From an uncultured Oscillospiraceae bacterium (lineage in GTDB: Bacteria; Bacillota; Clostridia; Oscillospirales; Oscillospiraceae), in contig CALWXF010000001.1 of the NCBI GenBank assembly GCA_944385445.1, forward strand, positions 1 to 64,000: 64,000 bases of DNA, written 5' to 3'. How positions within the stretch are numbered: position 1 is the stretch's first letter; every line of letters begins with the position of its first letter. The translations under genes and the position numbers were made by a program. Under the pieces are notes generated by a model that made no database searches, had not been told where the DNA came from, and saw only the letters and a list, made by a program, of their open reading frames with translations. This document shows positions 39,367 through 47,943 of this stretch, piece by piece.

Positions 39367-40467
39367 TCAGTCGTCCTGATCGTCGTCCTGGTCGTCGTCC
39401 TGGTCGTCGTCCCGGTCGTCGTCCCGGTCGTCGTCCTGGTCGTCGTCCCGGTCGTCGTCCTGGTCGTCGTCCCGGTCGTCATCCCGGTCGTCGTCCCGGT
39501 CGTCATCCTGGTCGTCGTCCCAGTCATCGTCCTGGTCGTCGTCCCAGTCATCGTCTTGGTCGTCATCCCAGTCATCGTCCCGGTCGTCGTCCCAATCATC
39601 ATACTGGTCGTCGTCCCAGTCATCGTCCTGGTCGTCGTCCCAGTCATCGTCCTGGTCGTCGTCCCAGTCATCATACTGGTCGTCGTCCCAGTCATCGTCC
39701 TGGTCGTCATCCCAGTCATCATACTGGTCGTCGTCCCAGTCATCATACTGGTCATCGTCCCAGTCGTCATCGCCCTCTGCCTGCTCGGCATCCATCTCCG
39801 TGACCTTGCCGGTGGAGGCGTTTACTTCATACTCATACTCCACGCCGTCCAGCACAAAGGAAATCTCATACTCCCCATCGGACAGGTCGTATTCCTTTTC
39901 CACAAACTGAAGGTCCGAGCGGTTGAGCTGAGCGGCCAGCAGCTCCTGGGCGGCCTTGGCGCTGATGTAGCCCTGCTGGGCGTAGGCGGGGTCGTAGTCG
40001 TCATCGTCCAGGGTCATGGTCTGGGAGCCGATGTGGTCGTCATCCACCACCGCCTGCACCGCCACAGCCAGCTGGTTGAGGAAATCATCGGAGGGGTACT
40101 CGGAGCCTCGCTCCAGCTTGAGGATGATGTTTTTCTCGTTGCCGTCGATGGTGTCATCGAAGTAGCCGTCCTCATGGATGCGCTCCACCAGAGCGGGGAC
40201 CACTTTCTCACAGGGCTGGCCCTTGGCCTCCTGGAAGGCGGACACCACTTGCTTGCCGTCCTCGTTCTGGCCGGTGAGGGCCACCACGTTGCCCTCATCA
40301 TCGTAGCTGATCTGGATTTCCGGGTTGACGCTGAGCAGCAGGGTGCCCACCCCTTGGGGGGTGTCCTGGGTGCTCTGGGCGGAGGGGGTGGAGCAGGCGG
40401 TGAGCAGAGTCAGGGAGAATACAGCGGTCAGGGAGAGAGCCAGCCATTTGTTGTTCATCTTTTTCAT
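39367..40467 (-). CDS. RsgI-like/PepSY-like lipoprotein with Asp-rich repeat tail
   Basis: A 366-aa protein. A lipobox (LLTAC, Cys at about residue 25) makes it an exported lipoprotein. Residues about 40-145 (GTLLLSVNPEIQISYDDEG) resemble the extracellular core of RsgI anti-sigma factors; about 160-230 is a PepSY-like module (YISAKAAQELLAAQL, EYEYEVNASTGKVTEMD). The last 130 residues are WDDDQYDD-type octads grading into DDDR/DDDQ tetrads. The RBS is AAAGGAG. It follows rsgI but has its own promoter, whose sequence matches the sigI promoter. Likely a sensor or partner in the SigI circuit; function otherwise unknown. Confidence 0.75.
   Translation of the reverse strand: MKKMNNKWLALSLTAVFSLTLLTACSTPSAQSTQDTPQGVGTLLLSVNPEIQISYDDEGNVVALTGQNEDGKQVVSAFQEAKGQPCEKVVPALVERIHEDGYFDDTIDGNEKNIILKLERGSEYPSDDFLNQLAVAVQAVVDDDHIGSQTMTLDDDDYDPAYAQQGYISAKAAQELLAAQLNRSDLQFVEKEYDLSDGEYEISFVLDGVEYEYEVNASTGKVTEMDAEQAEGDDDWDDDQYDDWDDDQYDDWDDDQDDDWDDDQYDDWDDDQDDDWDDDQDDDWDDDQYDDWDDDRDDDWDDDQDDDWDDDQDDDWDDDQDDDRDDDRDDDRDDDQDDDRDDDQDDDRDDDRDDDQDDDQDDDQDD
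39369..39780. repeat. Tandem repeats coding the acidic tail of the lipoprotein
   Basis: 12-nt (GTCGTCCTG/CGG-type) and 24-nt units over about 410 bp, encoding DDDQ/DDDR and WDDDQYDD. It is prone to slippage, so the length is probably variable between strains and between assemblies. Confidence 0.9.
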
Positions 40468-40513
40468 ATTATTGATCTCCTTTCATGCCCTGTGTGGGCC
40501 TTGTTTTCGTTGG

Positions 40514-40547
40514 TAGAATACGGGGGGCGGTGGGGGAAACCGGGGTG
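40514..40547 (-). promoter_or_regulatory. Putative SigI promoter of the lipoprotein gene
   Basis: Minus-strand CACCCCG (40547-40541), 18 nt, CGTATTCTA (40522-40514), 47 nt before the start codon. The identical pair with the identical spacing precedes sigI. No TTGACA/TATAAT pair is seen here. Confidence 0.7.
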
Positions 40548-40592
40548 AGGGGAAAATATTTTTAAAAAATTTTTTCTTGAGGAAAGGATGGG

Positions 40593-41462
40593 TCAGGAGT
40601 CGTCCTCCTGGTCATCCTCCTGGTCATCCTCCTGGTCATCGTCTTGGTCATCGTCTTGGTCATCGTCTTGGTCATCGTCTTGGTCGTCGTCTTGGTCGTC
40701 GTCTTGGTCGTCGTCCCCATCGTCCTCCCAGTCATGGCCTTGGTGGTCATCGTCCCCATCATCGTCCTGGGGTTCGTTGTCATCGTCATCGTCGTCTGGA
40801 GGGATATAAGGGGTGGGGGTGGGCGGCGCAGGCGTGGGAGGAGGAGCGGTGGGGGCGGGGGTCGCCGGGGCAGGGGTGGATGGATTTATGGGGATGATGA
40901 CGGTATCTCCACGCTGGACGGTGATGGTGTCCCCATATTGGCTGTGGAGCAGATCCATGACATAGTCGGTTTCGCTGTCCTGCCACTGAGTGTCCGAGCT
41001 GTCCACGGTAATGGAGATGGTGTCCCCGTCGGACAGGTACCCCATCTCAATGGCCCGATCCACCAGCTCCTGGGCCACGGTGTCCTGGTCTTTGTTGTGG
41101 TAAGAGTACCCTTCGATCAGATCCCAGCCATCCTGGTTCAGGCCCTCCAGGTCCAGCACCCGTTGGGTGCGGCTGAGGGTCATCTGCACATCCGGGTTGA
41201 TCTGAATGCGCAAGGTGCCGTAGGGGGAGAAGTTGGGACGGTAGTATCCAAAGAACACCAGGCACAGGCAGGCGGCCAGAGAGGCCAATCCCACCAGGGG
41301 CTTCCAGGGCTGGCGGTGGGACTGGGCTGAGTCGGGCATGGTGACCACTCGGTCTACCTGTTGGCCCACCTGATAGTTCCGGTTGGCAACCTTGAGAAAA
41401 CGCCCTTGGGAGTCCAACACCACTGCATAGGCAGGGTGTACTTCCATGACAAGGTAGGTCAC
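40593..41462 (-). CDS. rsgI: Anti-sigma-I factor RsgI-like protein
   Basis: A 289-aa single-pass membrane protein holding SigI inactive. The N-terminal cytoplasmic RsgI domain (VMEVHPAYAVVLDSQGRFLKV, residues 5-40), TM helix at about 55-74, and extracellular domain (YGTLRIQINPDVQMTLS) match the family. It ends in a Pro/Thr linker and a long (DDDQ)n tail. In related clostridia the extracellular end of RsgI proteins carries carbohydrate-binding modules that sense polysaccharides; here an acidic repeat replaces them. Its ATG overlaps the sigI stop (ATGA). Confidence 0.85.
   Translation of the reverse strand: MTYLVMEVHPAYAVVLDSQGRFLKVANRNYQVGQQVDRVVTMPDSAQSHRQPWKPLVGLASLAACLCLVFFGYYRPNFSPYGTLRIQINPDVQMTLSRTQRVLDLEGLNQDGWDLIEGYSYHNKDQDTVAQELVDRAIEMGYLSDGDTISITVDSSDTQWQDSETDYVMDLLHSQYGDTITVQRGDTVIIPINPSTPAPATPAPTAPPPTPAPPTPTPYIPPDDDDDDNEPQDDDGDDDHQGHDWEDDGDDDQDDDQDDDQDDDQDDDQDDDQDDDQEDDQEDDQEDDS
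40596..40735. repeat. Tandem repeats coding the acidic tail of RsgI
   Basis: A 12-nt unit (GTCATCCTC / GTCATCGTCTTG type) repeated about 12 times, encoding DDDQ then EDDQ. Probably length-variable. Confidence 0.85.
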
Positions 41463-42196
41463 TGTCCATCTCCTCCTTTCTCCGTGTGGATGTGACAGAG
41501 GTGTCCCCGGATGATCTCGTAGCCATTGGTGAAGGCCAGCAGAATGGCCACCAGGTACTTTCGGTGCCGTTCCAAGGTCTTGCGCTCTACCTTGGCGCCT
41601 TGGGACAGCTCTGCCAGGGGCAGCCGCTTGGTGGCCACCATCTGGTCCAGCAGCTGGGGGGCAGTCCGGGCATACGCCAGCACCTGCCTGCAGGCCTGCA
41701 GAGTGCGCTCCTGCTTGGGGCAGTTGTCCGCCACCTGGGAGAAGGTGATGCCGAAGGTCTCCAGCTGGGCGGAAAACTCTGCGATTTCCTCCTGGCTGGC
41801 CATGCGCTGCTGATGACTGGCCATGTCCGCCCCGTGGTCGGGAATCTGCTCCAGCAATGGGACCTCTTCCTCCTGGCTTTGGGGTTGATAGAGGGAGATC
41901 ACACCGCTGTGCCGCTGTTGCTTACGGTACTCATCAATGAGGCGGTGTCGGATGATGCGGGCGGCATAGGCCAGGAAAGGGCCCTTGATGCGCTGATAGC
42001 TGAGCATGGCCTGATAGAAGGCGAACATGGCGATGCTCAGCTCGTCCTCATGGCCATACTCCGGTGGGGCATGGGTGAATTTGATGGTTTCGTTGCGAAT
42101 AAAGGGCATATATTGGGCAATCAGGGCGTCGGCGGCCTGGGAATCTACTTTTGCTGCCATGACCTGATCCACAAGCTCCGGGGATGGTGCAGTCAT
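41459..42196 (-). CDS. sigI: RNA polymerase sigma factor SigI
   Basis: A 245-aa sigma-70-family factor. Region 2 reads IAQYMPFIRNETIKF, EDELSIAMFAFYQAMLSY and RIIRHRLIDEYRKQQRH; the C-terminal SigI-specific domain includes ETFGITFSQVADNCPKQERT and ERKTLERHRKYLVAILLAFTNGYEIIRGHL. In Bacillus, SigI responds to heat; in cellulolytic clostridia, paralogues switch on glycoside hydrolases. It is co-transcribed with rsgI and preceded by a promoter motif shared with the downstream lipoprotein gene, so it is probably autoregulated. Confidence 0.9.
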   Translation of the reverse strand: MTAPSPELVDQVMAAKVDSQAADALIAQYMPFIRNETIKFTHAPPEYGHEDELSIAMFAFYQAMLSYQRIKGPFLAYAARIIRHRLIDEYRKQQRHSGVISLYQPQSQEEEVPLLEQIPDHGADMASHQQRMASQEEIAEFSAQLETFGITFSQVADNCPKQERTLQACRQVLAYARTAPQLLDQMVATKRLPLAELSQGAKVERKTLERHRKYLVAILLAFTNGYEIIRGHLCHIHTEKGGDGQ

Positions 42197-42223
42197 AAAG
42201 CTCCCTCCAGTCTCCTCTGTCTC

Positions 42224-42257
42224 TAGAATACGAATGCACGGTTCCAGTTTCGGGGTG
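42224..42257 (-). promoter_or_regulatory. Putative autoregulated SigI promoter
   Basis: Minus-strand CACCCCG (42257-42251), 18 nt, CGTATTCTA (42232-42224), 28 nt before sigI. The C-rich -35 agrees with the ACCCCC type known for Bacillus SigI. Confidence 0.7.
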
Positions 42258-42441: not shown

Positions 42442-45400
42442 TTAGCTGCGCTCTTTGCGCCGCACCACCCACAGGGCGGCAGCGCCGGACAGAGCCAGAG
42501 CGGCGGCCCAGGGCAGCAGGGAGGCGGAGTCCCCGGTCTGGGGCACGTTCTCCGGCTTCTGGGTGGCCTCGGGCTTCTGAGAAGCCTCGGGTTTGTCGGT
42601 GGTCTGGGGCTTGTCGCTGGGCTGGGCCTCGCCTTCAGCGGTGAGGCCGTCCATGGCGGCATTCAGAGCGTCCACAGCGGCGTCCACGGTGTCCTGGTCG
42701 TCCTCGGTGAGGGTGTCATCGGCCAGCACAGCCTGGGCCTGGGCCAGAGCAGTGCGGAACACGGCCACGGACTGGGCGGTGTAGCCTTCCAGGTTGAGGT
42801 TCTCAGCCTTGTGAATGAGGTCTTCCAGGATGGACTTATCTGCCTTGAACCGCTGGGCCAGGATGGCATTCAGCAGAGCCTGGGCGGCGGTCTGTACGTC
42901 CTCCTCCATGGCATTGCCGTCGTCCATGACTTCATTGGCCTTGGCCAGAGCGTCCACCAGCTGCTGCCAGGTATCGGTGACGTACTTGTCGGCACTCTCT
43001 ACCATGCCCTCGGCCCGGGCAATGAGCAGTTCCAGCATGGTCTTGTCTCCCTTGGTGAAGCCCAGCATGTGGATGGCCTTCACCAGCTGGTCAAAGGCGG
43101 CGTCCACCTCAGCCTGAGTGGCGCTTTCCTTGTCCAGAACGGCCTTGGCGTTGTCCATAGCGGCCTGGAACTTCTCAGCCACAGTGGGGATGAGGTTGGA
43201 GGTGTCCTGCTCCAGGGCGTAGTGGTAGGCGTACTCCAGCAGGGACTTGTCCGCTTGGGCGGGGGTGTTGCTGTCGTCCATCCGGTCCAGCTGGAGATAG
43301 TCCAGATAGATGGTTTGGTTATTCTTGTGCTGCAATTTATTGATGTTTGTATCGTACCAGTTAGCGGTATCCTCGGCCACAATGCGAATGGTGTGAACGC
43401 CAGCATCCAGATTCAACGTCAGGTGGGTGCTTCTGGTCCAGTCGAAATACATTACGGGGAAGAGAAGGGTTCCCACATCTTCGCCGTCCACATAGACAGA
43501 GCGAATGGCACAGTAATCGCCACTGGGGGCATCGCCGCGGTTGGAATAGCAGACGCTGAGGGAATAGGTGCCTGCCTGTGCAACCTCCATCTCCACCACC
43601 AGATCGTGGGTGGAGTCCAAGTTAGCGTTGCTGATCACAGCACCCTGGCCGGAGAAGCCTTCTGTGCCTGTGTAGAACAGATTTTCCTGGTACACGCCAT
43701 CCTCTGCTTCCACTAGAACGGTGCTCCCTTCGGGCCGGATGGTGATGGGCTGGGACAACTCAGATTCAATGCCATCGGCGGCCACAGCCACCAGGCTGTA
43801 TACGCCATAGCGGGTGGTGTCGGGGGTGTAGCTGCCGCCGCTGACGGGGATGTACTCCTGACCGTTCCACAGTTTGTAGGTATAGCGGCTGTCTTCTTCC
43901 CAGGTGAATACGCCATTTTCATAGGTCATCACCGGCATATCCGGGCAAGCCACATAGTTGTAGTCACTGAGGTTGATGGGGCTGCGCACGCCGCTGTCTT
44001 CCACCACCAGCTCCAGGGTGTGCTCGCCGGTCAGGGTGGTGGGAAGCACATAATCTGTGCCCATTTCCACACCGTCCAACTTCACAGAGGTGAGGGTGTC
44101 ACCGGAGCCCCGGAGGGTGATGTCCAAGGTGGCGTCCCGGTAGGGGTAGTTGGTCAGGTGGAAGGGGCCGTCCATCCACTCAGGTACATAGGGACGGAAG
44201 ACGATGCCTTGTTCTGTGTACTCCATGCCGAAGAGAATGCGATAATACCCAGACAGAGTTCCGGCGATGGACCACAGCTGATTCCGGGAAGCCACGCCTT
44301 CACCGGTGGTGAAATTAATGACCTCATAGTTGGTCAGGGTCATGGCGCAGCCACGCAGGCAGGACTTCCAGATCTCTTCGGCCAACTGGTTGTTGCCCTC
44401 CTGGCCAGCGCCGATCATCAAGGTGGCTTCCCAGCCGGGCCACACGCCCCGGTTGTGGTAGATGGTACCAGCTTGACGACCATTCTTCTGAGGATAAACG
44501 GTGTCTGCTCCGTACAGCACCAGGGGGTAATTTTCCATGATGGCCTGGCACTGTTCCGGGTTGGCGATGCCATACATCACAGCGTAGCCATTGGAGATGA
44601 CGTCGTATTTATAAGCATCCGGCGCCCCCATGTAGTTGGGGTACTCCCAGGACACATACAGACCTCTCTCCTCATCCCAGAAGTGTTCGTTGACACGCTG
44701 GACCAAGTCTGCCTTTCGCTGCTGCCACATGGACACCACGTCGTCCCCATAGCCCAGGATATCCGCAGAACGGGCCATGATTTCATAGACCTGGCAATAG
44801 ATGATGTTGACGATGGAGGATTTGGACTCGGCAATGTTGGCCAAGCTGTCCTGGGCATGTTCGCTCATCCAGTCAGGATAGGTCTTATCCCGGTGATCCA
44901 GTCCGCCGGTCTCACCCTTAAACAATCCGGTTTCAGGATCGTAGGCCACATGGAGATCCTGCTGGATGGTATGTTGGGTGTAGGGATAGAATTCTTCCAG
45001 AAGTTCCACGTCTCCGGTGGTGAGATACTGTTCCCAGATGGATAGAGCTGTGATGATTCGATCCACAGAGACGGGGTAAGAGCCGCCGGTACCGGTGTCC
45101 TGCTGATAGACGGGGTGATCGGTATCGGTTCCCACCAGCTTTTCCAAGGCGCAGTTCTTGGACTCCTGGGGATAGATCCAGGCCAGAGAGTACTGCACCG
45201 ACATGGCAGTGTCTCGGGTCCAGACATAGTTCCAGTTGGTACCTGTGTTGAAAACGGGGCCATATTTCCCGTCAAAGGTGTTCTCGAAGGTCTCCTCCAT
45301 GGTGCGGTTGTAAACCGCCTCGATGATGGGCATGTTGGGGGCCTCGAAGATGGGCTTGGAGGAGATGTCCTGTTTCAGCGTCCAGGTCTGGTCCACGCCG

Positions 45401-47943
45401 CCATAGTTGGTGGTGATGGAGGTGCCGTCGTTGGAGATGGCACGGTAGCCGGTGTCATCCACCCGGTTTGCACCAATGGTGTACCAGCGTTGGGCAGGGG
45501 TCAAAATCCAGTTGGCGCTGTGCCAGTGGCTCTGGGCTCCAGAGATCTCCACCCGGCCCGTTTCGTTTTCCATGTGCAGCGTGGTGCTGGAGTCGGTGGC
45601 ATTGGTAATGGAAACGGCAGAAGTACCGCTGACGTGGGTAATGACCCACGCCGCTTCGGGCTTTTGGGCATCCTGGCTGGTGCCGCAGACCACCCGGCTG
45701 TCCCCTTGATCCAGCAGCAGGTATCCGCCGGACTGGACGTGGCGGATGTGGTAGGTATCCCCGCCGGCCATGGGGATCACATCAAAGGCGGTGGCCTCTT
45801 TGTCCGCCTCACTCATGCCGTTGGAAGAGACATAGCCCAGGGTACCATCCTCCAGGATGGCAAAGACCTTGTCCGAGTTTTCATTCCAGCGGCACTGAAT
45901 CTGCACCCCGGTGTACTCGGTGGCGGTAGAGGTGGCTTGGGAGCCCGGAATGACCACGGCGTCTACAGACCACGCATCCACGCCTTCTGCCGAGAAGGTG
46001 ATGAATTCCGAGCGGATGGGCTGCTCAAAGGTCCATTCTGCCCGGCGCAGCTGATCCTGGCTGATGGGGGCCGAGATGGTTTGGGTGGAGCCGTCGCTGA
46101 AGGTCAGGGTTGCGTTGAGGGTCTCGCCAAGAGAAGCGGGCAACCCATAGAGGAAGATGGACTGGAACTCCGTAGCCTGGTCGAAGCTTATCTGCAGCTT
46201 TGAGCCGGCAGTGGTGAAGCCACCCAGCAGCTGGTCCATGGGCTGGAAGCCGTCTTTGGTGGATGCATAGGCCTGGAGGGCACAGTCTGTCACTTCAGAT
46301 GCACCAAACTCACCGTGGAGTTCCATCTCCCACACAGAGCCTTGGTTCTCAGTGGGTTCAAACCGGGCCCAGTAGATCTGGGAATTTTCGCCCAGGCTGA
46401 CTTCGGTGCCCTGGGGGGTGGGGGTCACGTCGGGAATGATGGAACCATCACTGCATACCAGTGTGCCGGTGATGCCGTCTCCAAACAGCACCGCTTTGTG
46501 GACTTGGTAGGAGCGGTCAAAGCGAATACCAACAAACCGGTTTGCCTCTGCGGGGGTCCACACAGCCTGGTTGTCGTCGGTAATGCCGTCGTTGATGTAG
46601 GCGGCCTGGGAAGAACCGGACTGATCAAACCCCACGCCATCCCAGGCAATGTTGCTCATGGGTGACAGATAGGTCAAAGTGAAATCGGCCAGATTCCACC
46701 CCTCATAGTCGGCCATAAAGGTCAATCTCTGCTGGCCGGCTACCAGCCGCACCTTGGTGGAGACCTCTTGATAGGTCTGCCATCCGCCCGTTACAGGGAC
46801 AGACACCACGGATGCGCCGGTCTGCTGGGTTACGATGCGCACGCCGCGCTCTGCGCCCACGTCGTTGCCACAGGCCACCCGCAAAGTGATCTCATACACG
46901 CCTGCGTCCTGTACCGAGAGAGGATAGTCAAACCAATCGCCGTCATCCACATTGCCCACGTTGTTGGGTTCGTTGACAATACCGGCACCCTGTTCCCACT
47001 GGGTGGCCGGGATGGTGACGGGGGTGTCTGCACTGACGGTGTAGCTTCCGGTGTGCTCCAGCGGAGACACCTCCAGATAGTCCAGATTCCAGGTGTTTTT
47101 CTGGTTGTGGATCACCACATGGTGATAACCGGGCTCCAGTTCCACTGCAGTACCGGCCAGAATATAGTTCTGCCAGTCCTCTGTGGTGGGGAAGGTCATA
47201 TCATAGGAGGTTCCGTCTACTTCCAGGCGGTAGGAGCCTCCGTCCTGAATGGTGGATACTCCTGCGCAAAAACGATACAGCCCGGACTGTGTGGCATACA
47301 CTCCGAATTCCACACGGTCACCCGCATCAAAGTCGCCGATATATCGGCCTGCACTGGCCGAAGGGCTCTCCAGGATCTTGGCGCCCTGCTGATCGACATA
47401 TGCTTCCGCTTCGTAACGATGGGCGTGCTCTTTAGAAATGTAGCTTTCCGCCCCTGTGAGTACCAGACAGTCCAGGTTCCAAGTGGCTCCCGTATTGGAC
47501 ACCGTCAAGGTGTGATCCCCTTCTTCCAGTGTCACAAGGGCCCGGGTATAGGTGTATGTCTGCCAATCTCCGGAGTTGGGAATGGTGAGCTCAGCCATAG
47601 GGGTGTCGTTGAGCAGGATTTGGGCGGCACCACCATCCTGGATGGTGCCAGTGCGTACCAATACCTGATATTTCCCGGATTCAGACACATGAATGGGGAA
47701 GGACGCCTGGCTTCCCTCATAAAAGTCTCCCACATATCCGGTGCCAGAGTAGCTGGTGCCATTGGTAAGGATTTTACCGCCGGACAGCTGGGCTTGTTCC
47801 GCCTCCAGGTTGACGGTCTGTCCTAGTGATAAGGAGTGGTTTGGAGCGGCGTTGGCAGGCGCTACAGCGGCGGCCCAAGGCACCAGGCCCAAGGTTATGG
47901 CCCCTGCCAGGCAGGTTGACAAAACTCTCTGTCGTGCTTTCAT
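42442..47943 (-). CDS. Wall-anchored multidomain (alpha/alpha)6 glycosidase
   Basis: A 1,833-aa exported protein, RBS AAGGAGG, signal peptide about 1-32. Two to three CBM6/CBM35-like modules (about 38-165, 172-295, 310-430; VNLEAEQAQL, RYEAEAYVDQQG) are followed by beta-sandwich domains and a possible beta-trefoil (700-870). The catalytic six-hairpin domain spans about 870-1290 (NWNYVWTRDTAMSVQYSL at about 905, then GSYPVSVDRIITAL, GLDHRDKTYPDWM). An Ig-like region, a further CBM6-like module (about 1405-1545; VEAEDGVYQENL), FIVAR stalk repeats (1555-1770), VPQTGD near 1799 and a basic tail complete it. The catalytic part recalls GH15/GH63/debranching-type enzymes; the exact family and substrate are not established. 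It is probably cotranscribed with the ROK gene upstream. Confidence 0.82.
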   Translation of the reverse strand: MKARQRVLSTCLAGAITLGLVPWAAAVAPANAAPNHSLSLGQTVNLEAEQAQLSGGKILTNGTSYSGTGYVGDFYEGSQASFPIHVSESGKYQVLVRTGTIQDGGAAQILLNDTPMAELTIPNSGDWQTYTYTRALVTLEEGDHTLTVSNTGATWNLDCLVLTGAESYISKEHAHRYEAEAYVDQQGAKILESPSASAGRYIGDFDAGDRVEFGVYATQSGLYRFCAGVSTIQDGGSYRLEVDGTSYDMTFPTTEDWQNYILAGTAVELEPGYHHVVIHNQKNTWNLDYLEVSPLEHTGSYTVSADTPVTIPATQWEQGAGIVNEPNNVGNVDDGDWFDYPLSVQDAGVYEITLRVACGNDVGAERGVRIVTQQTGASVVSVPVTGGWQTYQEVSTKVRLVAGQQRLTFMADYEGWNLADFTLTYLSPMSNIAWDGVGFDQSGSSQAAYINDGITDDNQAVWTPAEANRFVGIRFDRSYQVHKAVLFGDGITGTLVCSDGSIIPDVTPTPQGTEVSLGENSQIYWARFEPTENQGSVWEMELHGEFGASEVTDCALQAYASTKDGFQPMDQLLGGFTTAGSKLQISFDQATEFQSIFLYGLPASLGETLNATLTFSDGSTQTISAPISQDQLRRAEWTFEQPIRSEFITFSAEGVDAWSVDAVVIPGSQATSTATEYTGVQIQCRWNENSDKVFAILEDGTLGYVSSNGMSEADKEATAFDVIPMAGGDTYHIRHVQSGGYLLLDQGDSRVVCGTSQDAQKPEAAWVITHVSGTSAVSITNATDSSTTLHMENETGRVEISGAQSHWHSANWILTPAQRWYTIGANRVDDTGYRAISNDGTSITTNYGGVDQTWTLKQDISSKPIFEAPNMPIIEAVYNRTMEETFENTFDGKYGPVFNTGTNWNYVWTRDTAMSVQYSLAWIYPQESKNCALEKLVGTDTDHPVYQQDTGTGGSYPVSVDRIITALSIWEQYLTTGDVELLEEFYPYTQHTIQQDLHVAYDPETGLFKGETGGLDHRDKTYPDWMSEHAQDSLANIAESKSSIVNIIYCQVYEIMARSADILGYGDDVVSMWQQRKADLVQRVNEHFWDEERGLYVSWEYPNYMGAPDAYKYDVISNGYAVMYGIANPEQCQAIMENYPLVLYGADTVYPQKNGRQAGTIYHNRGVWPGWEATLMIGAGQEGNNQLAEEIWKSCLRGCAMTLTNYEVINFTTGEGVASRNQLWSIAGTLSGYYRILFGMEYTEQGIVFRPYVPEWMDGPFHLTNYPYRDATLDITLRGSGDTLTSVKLDGVEMGTDYVLPTTLTGEHTLELVVEDSGVRSPINLSDYNYVACPDMPVMTYENGVFTWEEDSRYTYKLWNGQEYIPVSGGSYTPDTTRYGVYSLVAVAADGIESELSQPITIRPEGSTVLVEAEDGVYQENLFYTGTEGFSGQGAVISNANLDSTHDLVVEMEVAQAGTYSLSVCYSNRGDAPSGDYCAIRSVYVDGEDVGTLLFPVMYFDWTRSTHLTLNLDAGVHTIRIVAEDTANWYDTNINKLQHKNNQTIYLDYLQLDRMDDSNTPAQADKSLLEYAYHYALEQDTSNLIPTVAEKFQAAMDNAKAVLDKESATQAEVDAAFDQLVKAIHMLGFTKGDKTMLELLIARAEGMVESADKYVTDTWQQLVDALAKANEVMDDGNAMEEDVQTAAQALLNAILAQRFKADKSILEDLIHKAENLNLEGYTAQSVAVFRTALAQAQAVLADDTLTEDDQDTVDAAVDALNAAMDGLTAEGEAQPSDKPQTTDKPEASQKPEATQKPENVPQTGDSASLLPWAAALALSGAAALWVVRRKERS

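Follow-up and report, generated by a model that had tools for sequence, protein, structure and literature searches.

SigI-type sigma factors are known from stress responses and from the control of cellulosomes, and the SigI regulon of Bacillus subtilis consists of wall genes. The locus considered here, made up of sigI, rsgI for its membrane anti-sigma factor and a neighbouring lipoprotein gene, lies in a window of 64,000 nucleotides (nt), the whole stretch of DNA that was analysed (contig CALWXF010000001.1, positions 1 to 64,000). The window comes from an uncultured Oscillospiraceae bacterium whose genome assembly has 2,152,896 bases in 37 contigs and is 91% complete. Its sequence makes it highly probable that sigI-rsgI and the lipoprotein gene share a SigI-type promoter, and that this promoter serves a dedicated regulon of lipoproteins that mirror the outer part of RsgI. 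The autoregulation of SigI and the logic of its promoters were known already; the regulon, the mirror lipoprotein and promoters with a T-tract in the -35 element are new.

The published consensus for Bacillales SigI promoters is ACCCCC--AA N15 CGAA, and that for SigI3 is CCCYYAAA and CGWA (PMC4711584). A CGTA -10 element is known, and has been shown to matter, for Clostridium thermocellum SigI3 (PMC10575876, PMC6056542), and single changes in the A-tract abolished activity in SigI3 promoter tests (PMC6056542). The latter source also contains the proposal that the A-tract helps to separate SigI promoters from the T-tract promoters of extracytoplasmic function (ECF) sigma factors (PMC6056542). 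C. thermocellum RsgI is described as undergoing self-cleavage first, followed by the action of RseP and of a ClpP-type protease. Self-cleavage is not required in all RsgI proteins, given that RsgI8 lacks the motif and that a block of cleavage does not fully stop B. subtilis RsgI (PMC12203970).

A probable promoter shared by sigI and a lipoprotein gene

The pattern CACCCCG-N18-CGTATTCTA occurs twice in the window, exactly and with equal spacing, before sigI and before the lipoprotein gene, with rsgI between both sites (Table 1). The spacers of the two 34-base-pair (bp) sites are unlike each other, and the pair is hard to obtain by chance, since 100 dinucleotide shuffles of the window contained no match. 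The exact match, the equal spacing, the unlike spacers and the improbability of chance had been pointed out in a preliminary description of the window, as had the identification of SigI, and profile searches bear out its gene identities. The distances to the start codons that it gave, 28 and 47 nt, are each one too many: the sites end 27 nt before the ATG of sigI (42196) and 46 nt before that of the lipoprotein gene (40467). In the whole genome, CACCCCG-N(16-20)-CGTATTCTA is found only at the two window sites. When up to three mismatches are allowed at a spacer of 18, 7 extra sites appear against 9 for a reversed control pattern, which is background.

Both 34-bp sites look like SigI promoters. 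The sigI promoter reads CCCCGAAA, then 15 nt, then CGTA, and so fits the SigI pattern of specificity bases and an A-tract in the -35 element, a gap of 13-15 nt and a CGWA -10 element. By the published SigI numbering (C-14 G-13 W-12 A-11), transcription of sigI-rsgI would start near 42218 and that of the lipoprotein gene near 40508. The sigma factor itself passes the cut-off of PF04542, the NCBIfam SigI models cover most of its length, and rsgI is adjacent. RsgI is laid out as RsgI_N, a transmembrane stretch (by eye), an RsgI_M/SEAL domain with Asn89-Pro90 and an acidic C-terminal tail.

Table 1. Coordinates of the sigI-rsgI locus and the lipoprotein gene in the window
Feature	Position	Strand	Basis
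SigI-type promoter of sigI-rsgI	42224..42257	-	-35 CACCCCG with A-tract (GAAA), 18-nt gap, -10 CGTATTCTA; exact match
sigI, sigma-I factor, 245 amino acids (aa)	41459..42196	-	Sigma70_r2 above cut-off; best NCBIfam models are SigI; 51-89% identity to 80 relatives
rsgI, membrane anti-sigma-I factor	40593..41462	-	RsgI_N PF12791 and RsgI_M PF23750, both above cut-off
Acidic tail of RsgI (DDDQ-type repeats)	40596..40814	-	Translation
A/T-rich tract directly upstream of the lipoprotein -35 element, putatively UP-element-like	40552..40580	-	Sequence
SigI-type promoter of the lipoprotein gene	40514..40547	-	-35 CACCCCG with T-tract (GGTTT), 18-nt gap, -10 CGTATTCTA; exact match
Mirror lipoprotein, 366 aa	39367..40467	-	Lipobox LTAC (Cys25, by eye), RsgI_M/SEAL, PepSY, Asp/Trp-rich tail
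Asn48-Pro49 of the lipoprotein, at the RsgI self-cleavage position	40321..40326	-	Matching Pro is the first residue of 8hep chain B
Acidic aromatic tail of the lipoprotein (DDDWDDDQ-type repeats)	39370..39774	-	Translation

Conservation of the site with sigI

The same arrangement recurs in a wider sample, the best 80 of 165 relatives from a scan of public genomes (51-89% SigI identity). Their titles place these in the Oscillospiraceae, the Lachnospiraceae and related groups, with chicken gut as a frequent source, and three of the 80 loci belong to members of the genus (G017, G015 and G002). With an upstream pattern of the CCCC...CGTA type that also allowed CGAA, a site precedes sigI in 78 of the 80 loci; of the other two, L097 lacks DNA upstream of the gene and L076 is short of one C. 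A lipoprotein gene was found in 69 loci and a site before 68 of these genes. The single miss, L099, results from a start chosen too far upstream, and a site is present at L099:6713-6743, 47 nt before an ATG that follows GGAG. Eight of the 11 loci without the gene are cut by a contig end and three (L076, L085, L094) are of the Faecalibacterium type; in those three genomes a blind motif search found tail or PepSY genes with the site on other contigs. A divergent lipoprotein gene has its own site in 11 loci (Mediterraneibacter 9, Merdimonas faecis 1, Mordavella 1). The link between site, lipoprotein and sigI thus survives rearrangement. When SigI was clustered at 80% identity, the site was present in 33 of 34 clusters for sigI and in 31 of 32 for the lipoprotein gene. 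There are 72 distinct sequences among 78 sigI sites and 91 among 100 lipoprotein sites, which are therefore not copies of one recent duplication. Two sites stand before the lipoprotein gene in 32 of 68 cases, most often 68-72 nt apart.

The sites are uniform in some respects and divided in others. The -10 element is CGTA in all 78 sigI sites, and CCCC and CGTA are 19 nt apart in 72 of these and in 94 of 100 lipoprotein sites. After CCCCG, the sigI sites carry an A-tract (54), a T-tract (17), a mixed tract (6) or none (1); 99 of the 100 lipoprotein sites carry a T-tract. An A-tract is accordingly not a feature of the -35 element of every target. At 68 lipoprotein loci, the A+T fraction is 0.88 in the stretch 11-20 nt upstream of CCCC, against a locus average of 0.43. 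From these sequences, the clade does not seem to follow the separation of SigI from ECF promoters by A-tract and T-tract.

Compared with Bacillales SigI, the sites differ in having a CGTA -10 element, mostly a CCCCG -35 element and, as a target, a mirror lipoprotein rather than wall genes. They are like the reported Bacillales sigI-rsgI promoters in the C-run and A-tract of the -35 element, the CG-A -10 element, the near-equal spacing and the position upstream of sigI (PMC4711584). With C. thermocellum SigI3, they share the C-run and the CGTA -10 element (PMC10575876, PMC6056542). They differ from SigI3 in a gap of 14-15 nt between the W-tract and CGTA, against 13-14 nt, in the T-tract of the lipoprotein promoters and in that the targets found are not cellulosome enzymes. 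The departure from the classical CGAA had been put down to a possible clade-specific variant. This holds in part: the uniform use of CGTA in this clade is new, as is the T-tract -35 variant at the lipoprotein gene, but CGTA itself is known for SigI3 from the sources just cited.

Within the genus, this SigI is present in 5 of 42 genomes (identity 100, 89, 61, 60 and 54%). A sixth match, in G031 (E 5.7e-4, 25% identity over about 100 residues), was not counted as an orthologue. The full-length lipoprotein occurs in exactly the same 5 of the 42 genomes, the next best matches being PepSY stretches with E 1e-13 or weaker. In the four genus genomes whose locus is intact, sigI and the lipoprotein gene are each preceded by the site; G020, the fifth, seems to have its locus split over two contigs, and each piece bears a site. 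The pattern CCCCGR-N17-CGTATYCT has 9 exact sites in these five genomes, all within the sigI locus, and, with one mismatch, 12 off-locus sites against 6 for the control. The looser CCCCGNWWW-N14-CGTANNCT matches in 5 of 5 genus genomes with sigI and in 4 of 37 without it, once in each, and the controls total 5. Three of these four matches lie within long open frames (L157, L158, L161) and one before an ftsH-like gene (L160), and all four are taken as background. The L157 site, in a genus member without this sigI, falls within the last part of one open frame, with a GH31 gene following 55 nt further on.

These distributions bear on the possibility that both genes share a promoter used by a different regulator, whether an ECF sigma factor or an activator, and not by the intervening SigI. 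T-tract -35 elements are indeed reported for ECF sigma factors (PMC6056542), and in this genome two further genes of the sigma-70 family, of which one matches the ECF model, adjoin genes for RsgI_M proteins. However, the site and the full-length lipoprotein follow the presence of sigI in the genus and stay with sigI across rearrangements, and CCCC and CGTA fit the SigI consensus rather than the AAC -35 element given for ECF promoters (PMC6056542). Control by another regulator is improbable, and SigI would be the factor that acts at both sites.

The reach of the regulon was estimated with CCCCGNWWW-N14-CGTANNCT and its reversed control in 59 genomes chosen for holding this sigI. The first 14, among which G049 is the same genome as G002, gave 32 sites against 1 for the control; G051 had none, 30 sites lay at sigI loci, and the other two both precede PepSY lipoprotein genes. 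The 45 further genomes gave 106 sites against 4, with none in G097. Of the resulting 138 sites (5 for the control), 121 are at sigI loci, as assigned by reading contig and position against the loci rather than by script, 11 precede other PepSY or tail protein genes, 1 is a copy of the sigI promoter, and 5 are background. Among the sigI loci with a site behind rsgI, the contig ends before the lipoprotein gene in several (G058, G064, G070, G071 and G082).

In the 45-genome set, 15 off-locus sites fall in 12 regions. Nine precede six PepSY or tail genes (L193, L194, L198, L200, L201, L202), one of which, L193, encodes an exported protein with an acidic tail and a sub-threshold PepSY match. Over 31 bases the copy, L196, is identical to the sigI site of its own genome; the contig ends there, and any downstream gene would lie beyond the end. 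The five background sites are within long open frames (L192, L195, L199, L203) or followed only by a 63-aa frame (L197). The motif is not as frequent inside genes as it is upstream of starts. The non-background off-locus sites either precede genes for PepSY or acidic-tail surface proteins or are copies of the sigI promoter, and at the stringency used the regulon is narrow. Sites before wall or hydrolase genes had been expected in the preliminary description, but none of the inspected off-locus sites in the sigI genomes precedes a recognised hydrolase gene, and a regulon of wall hydrolases is rejected. Its proposal that SigI is autoregulated and drives the lipoprotein gene as well finds strong support in the 80-locus conservation and the pattern searches of 59 genomes.

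The second site might also have arisen by chance or through a recent duplication of the region upstream of sigI, and the restriction to two sites in the window's own genome would suit this. The differing spacers, the A-tract in one site and T-tract in the other, the 68 of 69 lipoprotein loci, the absence of matches in shuffled sequence and the 138 sites against 5 in the control all speak against such an origin, and it is rejected as virtually impossible.

Two observations concern genes near such sites. At about L131:1501-1660 (Flavonifractor sp. An10), a SigI-type promoter is followed by what is, by eye, a decayed second sigI start and then by a PepSY lipoprotein gene; the sigma factor has apparently been lost and its promoter captured by the lipoprotein gene. 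This off-locus site is one of the 11 before other PepSY or tail protein genes. In G002, a small frame for a PepSY-like lipoprotein (L013:2431-2727) lies opposite sigI and upstream of it; by eye, it resembles the end of the one behind the site in L131.

The mirror lipoprotein and its tail

The RsgI_M and PepSY domains of the window lipoprotein had escaped the preliminary description. RsgI_M (PF23750) scores 56.1 bits, above its cut-off, and PepSY (PF03413) scores 27.2 bits against a cut-off of 24. No profile match to RsgI_N was found in the lipoprotein, which has instead a signal peptide with a lipobox (by eye); it is therefore not an RsgI, though it is like the outside half of one. By this domain make-up, the protein is the outside half of an RsgI-type protein on a predicted lipid anchor. 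An AlphaFold2 model of the two domains has a mean predicted local distance difference test score (pLDDT) of 92.2. Its best fold match in the PDB is B. subtilis RsgI 8t9n (E 9.3e-6, template modelling (TM) score 0.75 by target), and the periplasmic domains of C. thermocellum RsgI2 also match. In a profile search, the lipoprotein matches 8t9n and 8hep, and for its PepSY part the matches are 9vy3 and 4exr, a C. difficile lipoprotein.

The lipoprotein thus resembles the RsgI/SEAL anti-sigma factors of B. subtilis (8t9n) and C. thermocellum (8hdj, 8hep) in fold and in the cleaved Asn-Pro, but differs from them in the missing RsgI_N match, the lipobox and the PepSY domain. With PepSY lipoproteins such as C. 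difficile 4exr, and with Lanpepsy, it shares a PepSY-type part on an exported protein. The start of 8hep chain B at the Pro matching Pro49 agrees with a self-cleaved fragment. Of 79 RsgI proteins, 78 have Asn-Pro, the exception being cut by a contig end, as do 63 of the 64 lipoproteins that have RsgI_M; the lipoprotein may thus also cleave itself at this position. Among the 69 lipoproteins, domain profiles find RsgI_M with PepSY in 50, RsgI_M alone in 14 (those of the 11 divergent loci, L115, and L049 and L116, which are incomplete) and PepSY alone in 5 (L087, L095, L100, L103, L122).

Both RsgI and the lipoproteins end in tails that are mostly Asp-rich, frequently with Trp or Tyr, and WDD or YDD is C-terminal in 38 of 57 complete lipoproteins. 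The tails of the two proteins match within a locus: their 3-mer similarity is 0.446, against 0.280 when permuted (0 of 5000 permutations), with kinship left in the comparison. It covers 65 of the 69 lipoprotein loci, those dropped having short, missing or contig-cut tails or, in L116, no acidic tail in frame. Searches with five whole lipoproteins found no Pfam repeat match for the tails at E up to 10, which gives no support to their being a known repeat family. A 94-aa lipoprotein of the Faecalibacterium-type genome G079 (L201:1289-1570), with a lipobox and WDDRYDDD repeats, stands behind two SigI-type sites.

A possible decoy circuit

A dedicated SigI module is very likely on this evidence, and it can be set against several observations that weigh the other way. 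The curated NCBIfam cut-offs for SigI are missed (169.6 against 306 bits for NF006178, 153.8 against 185 for TIGR02895), and the protein is therefore read as a diverged SigI. The T-tract of the lipoprotein promoters stands against the need of SigI3 for an A-tract (PMC6056542), and the case for one sigma factor reading both kinds of site is therefore built on conservation. No part is universal among the regulon proteins: PepSY is below the Pfam cut-off in L087, L138, L193 and L200 and absent in L101 and L201, and L201, with neither RsgI_M nor PepSY nor any Pfam match, is a tail alone. As to the tails, L100 and L122 have almost none, that of L202 is short and its protein lacks the lipobox Cys, and the matching within loci may stem from kinship, low complexity or gene conversion between neighbouring repeats and not from a common function. 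Finally, the count of sites is a lower bound on the regulon, as weaker sites would escape the pattern.

If the module works as its sequence suggests, SigI, encoded between both sites, would transcribe sigI-rsgI and, from the second promoter, the mirror lipoprotein. RsgI would hold SigI at the membrane, its outside part being a self-cleaving SEAL/RsgI_M domain and an acidic tail taken as the sensing part. A pull on the tail, or a change in it, would separate the cleaved halves of RsgI and so lead to regulated proteolysis and the release of SigI; the cleavage steps are transferred from C. thermocellum RsgI, and the tail is the presumed trigger. Freed SigI would make more SigI and more tail-bearing lipoprotein. 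The lipoprotein, having no inside domain, could not signal. Its tail, however, is of the RsgI kind and in most cases sits on a domain like the self-cleaving one of RsgI, so that the protein would bind the signal of RsgI. It could then act as a sponge or decoy that guards the cell and ends the response. This last step, suggested by mirrored domains and tails under SigI control, is put forward tentatively. A fuller version, in which self-cleaving, lipid-anchored copies of the RsgI ectodomain with a similar acidic aromatic bait tail compete with RsgI for the signal in gut Oscillospiraceae and Lachnospiraceae and, when pulled, are shed together with it, under a SigI that accepts both A-tract and T-tract promoters, is rather unlikely.

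The decoy step has one serious competitor, which leaves the regulon as described. The lipoprotein may be a plain effector of the SigI response, a binder of metal or other cations or a PepSY protease inhibitor, with no feedback on RsgI. PepSY is present in 55 of the 69 lipoproteins, five of these without RsgI_M, and its matches to 9vy3 and 4exr would suit such a role; a protein named Lanpepsy binds lanthanides, according to a review (PMC11845868), and the Asp-rich tails could bind cations. Taken alone, however, an effector role leaves unexplained why a SEAL domain is present in 64 of the 69 lipoproteins, and the self-cleavage Asn-Pro in 63 of these, and why their tails track that of RsgI; 14 have no PepSY match, and L201 likewise has none. 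A plain effector is a real possibility, if one that falls a little short of an even chance, and it is about as likely as a decoy. As for the ligand, the acidic tails and the metal-binding Lanpepsy (PMC11845868, a review) are the only pointers to metal or other cations.

Across a broad clade of gut bacteria, a SigI seems to serve mainly for the production of surface proteins that mirror its sensor, which suggests a sensing circuit. In the literature searched, no link of PepSY to SigI or RsgI and no report of this regulon or circuit was found, although papers on the SEAL domain and on RsgI autoproteolysis outside that search may describe it. The motif yields the regulon from sequence alone, and the lipoprotein is a concrete and testable instance in which the ectodomain of an anti-sigma factor may have been reused as a decoy. 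If SigI does read both kinds of site, the proposed separation of SigI and ECF promoters by A-tract and T-tract (PMC6056542) would be broken.

Just upstream of sigI, on the minus strand (42442-47943), lies the gene of an 1833-aa surface protein with CBM6/CBM35 modules, FIVAR repeats, a weak trehalase-like stretch and a weak C-terminal LPXTG-like match; a pattern search of the window found no exact SigI-type site before it. On contig C31 of the window's own genome, G000 (L016:622-2280), an RsgI_M protein with three PepSY stretches adjoins a two-region sigma-70 gene that passes the ECF model, and SEAL and PepSY ectodomains therefore also occur beside other sigma factors. Another RsgI_M protein, on contig C1 of G000 at 111236 (L017:1312-2085), likewise adjoins a two-region sigma-70 gene rather than SigI.

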